Made by a program: the position numbers and the translations under genes. The notes under the pieces were generated by a model. That model ran no database searches and was not told where the DNA came from. It saw nothing but the letters and a program-made list of their open reading frames with translations. A stretch of DNA of 64,000 nucleotides from Bacilli bacterium (lineage in GTDB: Bacteria > Bacillota_I > Bacilli_A > RF39 > UBA660). Position 1 is the first letter of the stretch. Every line of letters starts with the position of its first letter. The stretch lies in assembly GCA_017404385.1 (NCBI GenBank), contig JAFRCK010000023.1:62001-126000 (forward strand), read 5' to 3'. Below are positions 8,548 through 40,109 of the stretch, piece by piece.

Positions 8548-8557
8548 TCACTTAACG

Positions 8558-8768
8558 ACAGAAATGAGAAAATAGTAATATAATAAGTGCTTTTAAGAGA
8601 GATAACCATTGGTGAGAGGTTATTAGGTAACATTATATGAATTCACTCTCTAGGTTCTATAATGAAAGTTATAGCGTGTAATTTGCGTTAAAAATATGAG
8701 AGCATAGAATATCTATGAAGTAAGGTGGTACCGCGTTGAATCGTCCTTACATCATAGGTATTTTTTTA
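8558..8768 (+). promoter_or_regulatory. T-box riboswitch (tRNA-Phe) controlling pheST
   Basis: The leader carries the conserved T-box AAGGTGGTACCGCG (8722-8735). Within it UGGU (8726-8729) can pair with the ACCA end of uncharged tRNA. The specifier loop reads GAATTCA, with the Phe codon TTC at 8642-8644. The terminator form pairs TATGAAGTAAGG (8714-8725) with CCTTACATCATA (8745-8756), with one mismatch, followed by a T run. Uncharged tRNA-Phe is expected to stabilise the antiterminator and turn on pheS-pheT. Confidence 0.95.
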
Positions 8769-37455: not shown

Positions 37456-37821
37456 ATGACAGAAAAAAAGGCAATATTTACAAATGAAGAATTACAAGAA
37501 GCTTTTATTAATATAAGTGATTTATTTAGTAATAGAATTTCTGTAGAAACAATAGAAAGAATATATGACGTTATATCTTCTTATCCATGTTTCGAAAGAG
37601 AAAATGGAATTCTATGTTTAGGAATAGCTTGTGATATTAGAGAAGAACAATTTTCAAAAATTGGTCATATGCTTTATGAAGGATCTATATCACCATCTGA
37701 TGTTCCTTCACTTATTAAAACAAGAGATTTTTCAGAAGAAAAAGTAATTGAAATAGCTTTAAAAGATGTTTATGGTTATGATATTAAACAATCAAAAGTA
37801 AATAAAATGAATAAGCAATAA
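37456..37821 (+). CDS. Hypothetical protein (121 aa)
   Basis: Unrecognised, small, acidic and helical, without export signal. GAAAGGGG precedes the ATG. It sits between two nested promoter-terminator units and is monocistronic. The centre (SSYPCFERENGILCLGIACD) has three Cys that might bind metal, though no standard spacing is seen. Confidence 0.7.
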   Translation: MTEKKAIFTNEELQEAFINISDLFSNRISVETIERIYDVISSYPCFERENGILCLGIACDIREEQFSKIGHMLYEGSISPSDVPSLIKTRDFSEEKVIEIALKDVYGYDIKQSKVNKMNKQ

Positions 37822-37849
37822 AAAAATAAGTCTATTGACTTATTTTTTT
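37821..37849 (+). terminator. Intrinsic terminator after the 37456 gene
   Basis: AAAAAATAAGTC (37821-37832) pairs with GACTTATTTTTT (37837-37848), loop TATT. Confidence 0.88.
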
Positions 37850-37863
37850 GGTGATGTTATATT
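37835..37863 (+). promoter_or_regulatory. Promoter of the attenuated ABC-F transcript
   Basis: TTGACT (37835-37840, inside the preceding terminator), a 17-nt spacer and TATATT (37858-37863) with TGT before it. Confidence 0.75.
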
Positions 37864-37885
37864 ATATTTGAAGGAGGAATGACTT

Positions 37886-37942
37886 ATGTTTAGTTATTTT
37901 GACAGAAATATCATGTATATAAATATAAGTCATATCTGCTAA
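37886..37942 (+). CDS. 18-residue leader peptide of the ABC-F attenuator
   Basis: The ORF MFSYFDRNIMYINISHIC lies behind the very strong ribosome-binding site AAGGAGG (37871-37877), 8 nt before the ATG. No longer gene starts here, and its 3' end takes part in the RNA structures that follow. This is the layout of ribosome-stalling leader peptides before antibiotic-resistance genes. Function is inferred from the layout. Confidence 0.8.
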   Translation: MFSYFDRNIMYINISHIC

Positions 37943-38041
37943 TGCTAATTTAAATTTTTAAAATAGTATGCAGGTATGACATTTTCGTAGTGCCTGCATC
38001 CTTTATTTGACATGGGATGCTTATTCTCATGTTTTTATTTT
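37929..38041 (+). promoter_or_regulatory. Ribosome-mediated transcription attenuator upstream of the ABC-F gene
   Basis: Four successive mutually exclusive pairings can be drawn. Leader codons 37929-37939 pair with 37970-37980 (11 bp, one G-U). 37968-37980 pair with 37987-37999 (core ATGCAGG/CCTGCAT). 37996-38001 (GCATCC) pair with 38015-38020 (GGATGC). Finally 38010-38017 pair with 38025-38032 to form a terminator followed by TTTTTATTTT. A ribosome stalled early in the leader would leave the first pairing free, which favours the antiterminator and ABC-F expression. Confidence 0.82.
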
Positions 38042-38057
38042 GTAGAGGAGTGATACT

Positions 38058-39611
38058 ATGTTAGAAATTAATTTTAATAATGTAAGAATAAACTATGGAT
38101 TTGAAAATGTTTTAAATAGTATTAGTTGTGATATCTATACTAATGATAAAATTGCTTTAGTAGGTGATAATGGCTCTGGGAAAAGTACTATTTTAAAACT
38201 TATTTCAGGTGATGAAAAATCAAATGATGGAACTATATCAATTAGAAATAATTCAAAAATAGGATATTTAAAACAAGAACTAGAAAAAGAAAATATAATT
38301 GTTAAAGATTATTTATATAAAAGTTTTAAAGAAATAAATATATTAAAAGGAGAATTATCTAAATTAGAAAAAAGGATGCAGGAACAAGCAAACGAAAAAA
38401 CTATTCAAAGATATTGTGATTTGCAAGAAAAATATACCTCTTTAGGAGGATATGAATTAGATGAAAAGATAAATAAAATAGTTAATTATTTTGAAGTAGA
38501 GGATTTACTTCAAAAAAATATTAATGCACTATCCGGAGGAGAAAACAAGATAATAATGCTTATATCTATTCTCCTTGATAATCCGACTATTTTATTACTT
38601 GATGAGCCCACTAATCATTTAGATCTAGATATGATTCAAAAACTAGAAGATTATTTAAAAAAAATAGATGTAACAATAGTATTTGTGTCACATGACAGAT
38701 ATTTCATAAATAAAATATCGTCTAAAGTAATATTAATTGAAAATACTCATATATATGAGTTTATTGGTAATTATGATAACTTTATATCTCAAAATGAGCA
38801 AAGAATAATAAAACAAGAAGAAGCATATAAAAACGAACAAAAGAAAATACATAAGATGGAAGAACAAATTAAACAATTAAAGTTTTGGGGTAATTTTGGT
38901 TCTGGTAATGAAATATTTTCTAAAAGAGCTTTTTCTATAGAAAAAAGATTAAATAAAATGGAAAAACTAGAAAGACCAAAAGAAAAGACTAAAATTCCAG
39001 TTAAATTTAATATGGAAGATAGATCAGGCAAGGATGTAATTGTTTTAAAAGATTATTCAATTGATAATTTAATACTATCTAGTAATTTAGAAATATATTT
39101 TAAAGAAAAAGTGTGTTTAATGGGACCAAATGGAACAGGGAAAAGTACTATATTAAAAGATATTATTAATAATAATAGATTTGGATCTAATGTAGTATTT
39201 GGATATATTCCTCAAAATATTATTTTTGAAGATGAAGAAATGACTATAATAGAATTACTTAGAAAAAAGAGTAATGATGAAGAACACATTTTAAGAAGTA
39301 AATTAACTAAATTTAAATTTTATAAAGATAATATTAATAAAAAATTAAAACTTCTTTCTGGAGGGGAAAGAATAAGATTAAAACTATTCTTATTACTTCA
39401 AAATAATATTAATCTTATTATCATGGATGAACCTACTAACCATATAGATATCGAAACAAAAGAAATACTTGAAGATGCTTTAATTAATTTTTCTGGGACG
39501 GTTTTATTCGTATCACATGATAGATATTTTATTAATAAAGTTGCTGATAAAATTATAAGTATTGAAAATAAAAAATTAGTTACTTATATAGGTAATTATG
39601 ATAAAATATAA
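38058..39611 (+). CDS. ABC-F ATPase, probable ribosome-protection (antibiotic resistance) type
   Basis: A 517-residue cytosolic protein with two ABC domains and no membrane segment. Walker A motifs are GDNGSGKST and GPNGTGKST; signatures are LSGGENKI and LSGGERIRL; Walker B segments are LLLDEPTNHLD and IIMDEPTNHID. The inter-domain linker (about 235-320) is long and basic, ending in FSKRAFSIEKRLNKME. ABC-F proteins bind the ribosomal E site, and resistance members displace antibiotics from the peptidyl-transferase centre. The leader peptide and attenuator upstream support an antibiotic-induced role; a housekeeping ABC-F is the alternative. The next gene is an acetyltransferase. Confidence 0.9.
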   Translation: MLEINFNNVRINYGFENVLNSISCDIYTNDKIALVGDNGSGKSTILKLISGDEKSNDGTISIRNNSKIGYLKQELEKENIIVKDYLYKSFKEINILKGELSKLEKRMQEQANEKTIQRYCDLQEKYTSLGGYELDEKINKIVNYFEVEDLLQKNINALSGGENKIIMLISILLDNPTILLLDEPTNHLDLDMIQKLEDYLKKIDVTIVFVSHDRYFINKISSKVILIENTHIYEFIGNYDNFISQNEQRIIKQEEAYKNEQKKIHKMEEQIKQLKFWGNFGSGNEIFSKRAFSIEKRLNKMEKLERPKEKTKIPVKFNMEDRSGKDVIVLKDYSIDNLILSSNLEIYFKEKVCLMGPNGTGKSTILKDIINNNRFGSNVVFGYIPQNIIFEDEEMTIIELLRKKSNDEEHILRSKLTKFKFYKDNINKKLKLLSGGERIRLKLFLLLQNNINLIIMDEPTNHIDIETKEILEDALINFSGTVLFVSHDRYFINKVADKIISIENKKLVTYIGNYDKI

Positions 39612-39623
39612 TTGGTGATATAA

Positions 39624-40109
39624 ATGATAGTTGATTATGAAGATAAATATCTTGAGAATGTTAAAGATTTACTTCTTGAACTTGAAGAATATATTGTATC
39701 AATTGATGAAGATCATTTAGATAGAGTTCATCCTGATTATAGAGAAAGGATGGCTATAGTAGATTTAGAAGAAGTTAAAAATAATAATGGTAAATGTTAT
39801 TTAGCTTTAGATAATGATAAAGTAATAGGTCTTATTATGGGAATTGTTATTAAGTTTGATGAATATGACTATTTAGATTATAAATGTCCTAAAGAGGGAG
39901 AAATAACTGAGCTAATAGTATCTAAGAATGCTAGATCTAAAGGAGTAGGAAATCTACTTATGAAAAAGATGGAAGAGTATTTTAAATCTATAGGATGTAA
40001 ATATATTTTAGTAGATGTATTTGCGTATAATGAAAATGCTATTAAGTTTTATGATAAAGAAGGATATCATAATAGAATGCATAGAGCAATCAAGAAACTA
40101 GGTGATTAG
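39624..40109 (+). CDS. GNAT family N-acetyltransferase
   Basis: 161 residues with the acetyl-CoA-binding motif A in ELIVSKNARSKGVGNLLMKKME and a C-terminal VFAYNENAIKFYDKEGY typical of GNAT motif B. Substrate unknown. It follows the ABC-F gene by 12 nt with GGTGAT as ribosome-binding site, so it shares the attenuated transcript. An aminoglycoside or other drug substrate is possible but not shown. Confidence 0.88.
   Translation: MIVDYEDKYLENVKDLLLELEEYIVSIDEDHLDRVHPDYRERMAIVDLEEVKNNNGKCYLALDNDKVIGLIMGIVIKFDEYDYLDYKCPKEGEITELIVSKNARSKGVGNLLMKKMEEYFKSIGCKYILVDVFAYNENAIKFYDKEGYHNRMHRAIKKLGD

Follow-up and report, generated by a model that had tools for sequence, protein, structure and literature searches.

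Among described ABC-F genes, the pleuromutilin, lincosamide and streptogramin A class has leaders of 3 to 4 codons (PMC10201436), and the upstream ORFs of vmlR, cplR and lsaA are of this kind (MIN, MRI, MAGN) (PMC9226507, PMC10201436); leaders this short fit drugs that require little sequence context. In vmlR, a TTNTTT pause acts, and induction by translation defects is broad (PMC9226507). The msrD gene has the leader MsrDL (MYLIFM), at whose stop codon the ribosome stalls and itself unwinds the terminator, and negative feedback by the ABC-F protein is known for MsrD (PMC10314930). In Bacilli, the 53-codon leader bmrB precedes the ABC transporter genes bmrCD (PMC4191407). In the enteric his attenuator, stems AB, CD and EF compete with stems BC and DE (PMC10989985), and the role argued for its extra hairpin is the suppression of basal read-through (PMC1183508). 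His-leader attenuators have also been published in Firmicutes, including Erysipelotrichales (PMC9413887).

In the current study, we analyzed a leader region within a 64,000-nucleotide stretch of DNA (the window) that is part of a 1.3-Mb metagenome-assembled genome of a Bacilli bacterium. The region contains a real, conserved and undescribed variant of ribosome-mediated transcription attenuation, placed before an ABC-F gene, and its leader RNA appears to keep that gene from being read unless a ribosome jams on a very short conserved peptide. We found no such system described for uncultured gut or rumen bacteria in the literature searched. A first-pass annotation, made from the DNA letters, had proposed a leader-peptide transcription attenuator of the ABC-F gene, a proposal that comparison and folding support. 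It had also called an 18-codon ORF with a near-perfect Shine-Dalgarno sequence, and both are present where it placed them. The features of the locus are as follows.

37835-37863, + strand: putative sigma-A promoter, TTGACT-17-TATATT (sequence scan)
37871-37877, + strand: Shine-Dalgarno sequence AAGGAGG of the leader ORF (sequence; also found in relatives)
37879-37891, + strand: segment 0, the spacer between Shine-Dalgarno sequence and start, plus the start codon; pairs with 37921-37933 (covariation in 35 leaders)
37886-37942, + strand: leader ORF of 18 codons and a stop codon, MFSYFDRNIMYINISHIC (sequence; conserved in relatives)
37904-37918, + strand: proposed arrest motif R7-N-I-M-Y11, with the Tyr codon at 37916-37918 (conserved spacing, synonymous codons)
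37921-37939, + strand: segment 1, of which 37921-37933 pairs with segment 0 and 37929-37939 with segment 2 (pairing check, comparison)
37970-37980, + strand: segment 2, partner of segment 1 (ON) or segment 3 (OFF) (pairing check, comparison)
37982-37992, + strand: T-rich stretch plus TG, a candidate RNA polymerase pause (spacing and conservation; function putative)
37987-38002, + strand: segment 3, of which 37987-37999 pairs with segment 2 and 37996-38002 with segment 4 (pairing check, comparison)
38014-38020, + strand: segment 4, GGGATGC, antiterminator partner of 37996-38002, overlapping the 5' arm of the terminator (pairing check, comparison)
38009-38042, + strand: intrinsic terminator, stem 38009-38017/38025-38033 plus T run (pairing check, terminator scan)
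38058-39611, + strand: ABC-F ATPase of 517 amino acids, the regulated gene (NF000355, Pfam, predicted fold)
39624-40109, + strand: GNAT acetyltransferase, 12 nt downstream of the ABC-F gene (Pfam PF00583)

The segments form a six-segment alternating chain (0:1, 1:2, 2:3, 3:4 and the terminator), a topology of the his type, whose mutually exclusive, evolutionarily supported helices end in an intrinsic terminator. Each pairing listed in the first-pass annotation could be reproduced: 37929-37939/37970-37980 with 11 of 11 pairs, 37968-37980/37987-37999 with 12 of 13, 37996-38001/38015-38020 with all six, and the terminator 38010-38017/38025-38032 with all eight, followed by a T run. That each pairing excludes the next was likewise borne out, since comparison and folding give the same order of helices. 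The scheme of four helices was nevertheless incomplete, as there are five; helix 0:1 (37879-37891/37921-37933) had been overlooked. The leader folds 4.55 standard deviations better than 200 dinucleotide shuffles, none of which was as good, and a terminator scan returned one site in the region versus 0.0 ± 0.1 in shuffles. The foot of helix 1:2 lies 11 to 12 nt before a conserved T/G boundary that follows the T-rich stretch (eight leaders measured; 11 nt in the window). A T run and GTG are conserved at this candidate pause site, which, by analogy, resembles a hairpin-assisted pause site.

The locus shares with the enteric his attenuator the six-segment alternating chain, with three hairpins in the OFF state and two in the ON state, as well as an extra hairpin between the pause hairpin and the terminator, and in both the position of the ribosome on the leader would decide the outcome. 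Unlike enteric his, the leader has no run of His codons (its one His, codon 16, comes after the proposed stall site), the gene regulated is an ABC-F gene, and the sequences are unrelated; the Rfam His leader, RF00514, did not match the ABC-F leader at its gathering threshold or at E values up to 10. As in vmlR, cplR and lsaA, stalling on an upstream ORF would open transcription of an ABC-F gene, and there are a terminator, an anti-antiterminator and a candidate pause that recalls the TTNTTT type seen in vmlR. However, the upstream ORF is not one of 3 to 4 codons; instead, a conserved chain of 9 to 12 residues precedes the proposed stall, and there is one more pair of alternative helices. As a lead, this chain points to a context-specific inhibitor (such as a macrolide, phenicol or oxazolidinone) or to a drug-free arrest peptide. 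With msrD, the locus has in common a leader peptide, an intrinsic terminator, an ABC-F gene and transcriptional control, but the stall, which we infer to lie about 90 nt upstream of the terminator, would act through a relay of helices. Like bmrB, it would represent antibiotic-responsive (here putatively so), ribosome-mediated transcription attenuation in Bacilli through alternative stem-loops, although leader length, regulated genes and layout differ. The Firmicutes His attenuators, by their description (PMC9413887), also combine a leader peptide, an antiterminator and a terminator in related Bacilli, but they sense starvation through His codons and regulate his genes.

The element was found at 37 loci (the window and 36 others) within a single family of uncultured Bacilli from gut and rumen. 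At all 37 of the ABC-F loci analyzed it stands before the same ABC-F clade, and the whole leader was seen in 35. Of the 11 closest ABC-F genes whose upstream DNA could be read, eight carry it; the other three (L016, L017 and L019), homologues from the same family with 43 to 46% identity, lack a leader attenuator in the 320 nt before the gene. When 84,980 species genomes were scanned with a DNA pattern, 20 loci were recovered, all preceding the same clade, in hosts that are all uncultured, filed as Bacilli or Firmicutes and mostly from herbivore gut or rumen. R1, a covariance model trained on ABC-F leaders alone (those of the pattern-scan loci), found matches in 25 of the 386 family genomes, 24 of them before ABC-F. 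A second model, R2, added further members inside the family and none that was convincing elsewhere in the class; two weak matches outside the family in this class-wide search (L110 and L111) came without a leader and were dismissed as chance. A plasmid search and a viral scan turned up no copy of the leader, which thus shows no sign of mobility, and Rfam has no family that matches it.

The leader ORFs predicted at the 35 loci are about 11 to 19 codons long, and they combine a short ORF with a Shine-Dalgarno site and selection at the coding level, as a translated leader peptide would. In the closest relative, from the same genus (L009/L048), an identical leader peptide with the same arms precedes an ABC-F protein that is 82% identical. 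Promoter-like sites are common in AT-rich DNA. TTGACT-17-TATATT is the sole such site in 37750-38100, where shuffles average 3.5, and hence it is weak when taken alone; relatives have TTGAC- boxes at the corresponding position.

Examination of relatives, which the first-pass annotation had named as one way to check its model, showed that the pairings and the leader ORF are conserved and that compensatory changes occur. In the MAFFT alignment, helix 1:2 has three pairs that changed on both sides (1 of 500 shuffles was as high), and over the 37 loci four successive positions of this helix read CG/GC/AT, AT/GC, TA/CG and AT/GC, each having changed two to three times along the ABC-F protein tree. 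The terminator and helix 3:4 change jointly with their overlap kept, for example from GCATCC/GGATGT to ATCTGTA/TACAGAT (L011, L076, L078 and L081). The two sides of helix 0:1 were located independently of each other, and pairing within loci reached 19.9, versus 14.5 when partners were permuted (standard deviation, 0.53; 0 of 20,000 permutations as high; P < 5e-5; 35 leaders), or 18.8 versus 13.2 with representatives only. A control stretch of the leader gave no signal in the same test. All five helices match their own partners above chance in this test, which is partly circular for 1:2, 2:3 and the terminator (their arms were chosen by pairing) and not for 0:1 and 3:4.

We think it probable that a six-segment ribosome-mediated transcription attenuator, triggered by a stall in the following way, governs the ABC-F gene. 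If the leader carries no ribosome, 0:1 would form, followed by 2:3 and the terminator, and the gene would be OFF. A ribosome that finishes the leader would cover segment 1, again leading to 2:3 and the terminator (OFF). A ribosome stalled with Tyr11 in its P site, on the other hand, would part segment 0 from segment 1 and leave the latter free; 1:2 would then form, segment 3 would be released, and 3:4 would take half of the terminator (ON). The trigger is probably a ribosome-targeting drug acting jointly with the nascent peptide, and the ABC-F product would rescue or protect ribosomes and may in this manner shut its own switch. The direction of the switch, with a stall before arm 1 giving antitermination and completion of the leader giving termination, had been anticipated by the first-pass annotation and is supported by comparison and folding.

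Expected base pairs were calculated after taking out the RNA that the ribosome covers, for a polymerase about to enter the 3' arm of the terminator. The stalled state gave 14.2 pairs for 1:2, 0.5 for 2:3 and 7.7 for 3:4, and a ribosome at the stop codon gave 1.8, 10.2 and 4.4, respectively. In such ribosome-masked folding, 34 of 35 leaders switch from 1:2 to 2:3 (L044 fails), and a strict in silico test of the 1:2/2:3 switch was passed by 24 of 35 real leaders versus 0 of 700 dinucleotide shuffles. When the RNA is not translated, 0:1 forms in all 35 leaders once arm 1 is out, and with arm 3 out, 0:1 (11.2 pairs) and 2:3 (8.3 pairs) are dominant. The four-helix analysis had suggested a fail-safe ON state in the absence of leader translation, a notion that was dropped once 0:1 was found. 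Once the whole terminator has been transcribed, the equilibrium favors 3:4 over it in only 13 of the 35 stalled leaders, the window not being among them; because 3:4 loses in most leaders, antitermination would have to be kinetic. Taken as predictions, these foldings are consistent with stall-dependent read-through.

The family consensus of the proposed arrest motif is [RHKQ]-x-I-M/G-Y/F, and its residues are encoded by synonymous codons (AGA, CGC or CGT for Arg; ATC, ATT or ATA for Ile; TAT or TAC for Tyr). For the NYxxR group, pN/pS is 0.30 in the stretch that ends with the aromatic codon and 1.05 over the next three codons; for all leaders the values before and after are 0.63 and 1.31. In every one of the 35 leaders, the aromatic codon is 11 to 14 nt upstream of arm 1, although the end of the leader varies between 0 and +20 nt when counted from arm 1. 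Whereas the ribosome on msrD stalls at the leader stop, the conserved codon here, and the one at which we infer the stall, is the aromatic one; this and the variable leader end speak against a stall of the msrD type. The first-pass annotation had taken arm 1 to consist of the leader's last codons, which is true in the window but not in general, since in 20 of 35 cases the leader ends where arm 1 begins. In most of the His-codon leaders of the same bacterial family (discussed below), the last His codon is 11 nt before arm 1, although arm 1 was wrongly chosen in some of them (e.g., L104 and L106). With that codon in the A site, the P-site codon is 14 nt away, and the spacing of the aromatic codon in the ABC-F leaders (11 to 14 nt) agrees with this. 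Because peptide selection ends at the aromatic codon and the spacing of that codon to arm 1 is fixed, the likely trigger is a ribosome stalled with Tyr11 in the P site, where it would barely leave arm 1 uncovered, and [RHKQ]-x-I-M/G-Y/F is a new candidate arrest motif. One leader, at L049:7199-7337 (MLNYYAKTRLYNKA), has lost the I-M of the motif and kept the tyrosine and all RNA arms. The context of chloramphenicol- and linezolid-type stalls, which we take to be Ala, Ser or Thr, was looked for at the proposed stall site and is absent, as is the macrolide +X+ motif (PMC10314930).

The regulated protein has two Pfam ABC_tran domains and an ABC_tran_Xtn domain. It scores 386.9 bits against NF000355.4 (ribosomal-protection-like; cut-off, 380; relatives, 422 to 441), the only model whose cut-off it passes. 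It is far below every cut-off for the named resistance families Vga, Msr, Lsa, Sal, OptrA and CplR and is no closer to these than to EttA, Uup or YbiT. The predicted structure (mean pLDDT, 83; pTM, 0.54) matches the fold of EttA, YheS, VmlR2 and PoxtA, and this model confirms the ABC-F fold only. Its short linker tip (residues 279 to 283) is suggestive but no evidence on drug class, and in a sequence alignment of a relative the linker is without the roughly 30-residue insertion of VmlR2. Judged from its sequence, the product may be a ribosome-rescue or protection protein with a putative role in resistance. The GNAT gene is possibly cotranscribed with it. The earlier suggestion that the switch is shared with this acetyltransferase did not hold across the family; the two genes adjoin only in the window and its nearest relative (L009/L048), and with linkage so limited we rejected GNAT as a conserved partner. 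Upstream of the switch, 37456-37821 encodes a 121-amino-acid protein with no Pfam or NCBIfam match that is found at the same place in the nearest relative (46% identity). Elsewhere in the window, 8552-8751 is a T-box leader (Rfam RF00230, 112 bits).

What jams the ribosome may be read in other ways. The leader could be an intrinsic arrest peptide, or one that is simply hard to translate, which senses the loss of stall rescue by the ABC-F protein, so that the switch would serve housekeeping autoregulation rather than the sensing of an antibiotic. This would suit a protein that scores equally against the EttA, Uup and YbiT models and the resistance ABC-Fs, and a leader with no plasmid or viral copy and hence no sign of a mobile resistance gene; the feedback exerted by MsrD (PMC10314930) offers a precedent. 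We nonetheless regard this reading as unlikely, given that the protein passes NF000355 and no housekeeping equivalog cut-off and that the distribution of leader and gene is patchy. The leader could also sense slow translation in general; any inhibitor would then suffice if it halted ribosomes between the start codon and codon 12, and the peptide would matter little. Such behavior is predicted by the topology (any stall after 0:1 opens and before segment 1 is covered would give ON) and recalls the broad induction of vmlR (PMC9226507). However, the peptide is under selection before the aromatic codon and not after it, and that codon is fixed relative to arm 1, both of which make such a sensor quite unlikely.

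The layout is also that of the His-codon leaders of the same bacteria, which raises the question of whether starvation for Tyr, Ile or Met might stall the ribosome at I-M-Y. We find an amino acid attenuator of this sort highly improbable: the stall site has a single Ile, Met and Tyr and no codon run, the variants I-G-Y, K-G-F and R-L-Y exist, the conserved upstream residues (basic at -4) would be needless for a starvation sensor, and the regulated gene is not biosynthetic.

The stall-triggered ABC-F attenuator that we favor does have closely similar counterparts that carry His codons. R1 also gave a match upstream of hisG (E = 0.005) in a genome of the same genus; the genus yielded three hisG genes, each of which follows a His-rich leader (...HHNSLHLLIRH or close variants) with the same arms. 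Other His leaders stand before hisS, an M20 peptidase gene and a histidine-racemase-like gene. The last of these is in the window's own genome, where a His-codon leader of the same layout, MDKKVILSIRVYKHHNNVHLLIRH, lies at L112:1501-1620 (G000:C35:52579-52698), before a gene that resembles the histidine racemase CntK/HisR below the cut-off. R3, a covariance model of the His leaders, found 47 loci in 40 of the 386 family genomes. The His-attenuator loci (L082, L087, L088, L101-L109 and L113-L132) precede genes for HisS, HisG, the M20 peptidase, a 259-amino-acid protein and an 81- to 85-amino-acid protein with no assigned function. R1 matches the His leaders at 17.6 to 31.5 bits, and R3 weakly matches many ABC-F leaders (best E = 6e-4), in both cases with modest significance. 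Helix 0:1 is present in the His leaders, as is the block TTTGTNGTGCYTG; segments 0 to 3 are common to both sets, and the shared blocks are segment 0 and segment 3. A common origin of the two sets is plausible, although not proven. We put forward more tentatively, as something we would not quite bet on, that there was one ancestral attenuator whose relay was converted, in one direction or the other, between an amino acid sensor and a sensor of an antibiotic or arrest peptide through its control codons, with [RHKQ]-x-I-M/G-Y/F as a new context-specific arrest motif.

For uncultured gut and rumen bacteria, the present work extends the inducible ABC-F genes by a leader family with comparatively good support. 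Its sequence-specific leader of 9 to 12 residues predicts context-specific arrest, unlike the leaders of vmlR, cplR and lsaA. The chain of five helices, together with its closely similar His-codon cousins, suggests that attenuators responding to amino acids and to drugs can interconvert through a change of leader peptide.
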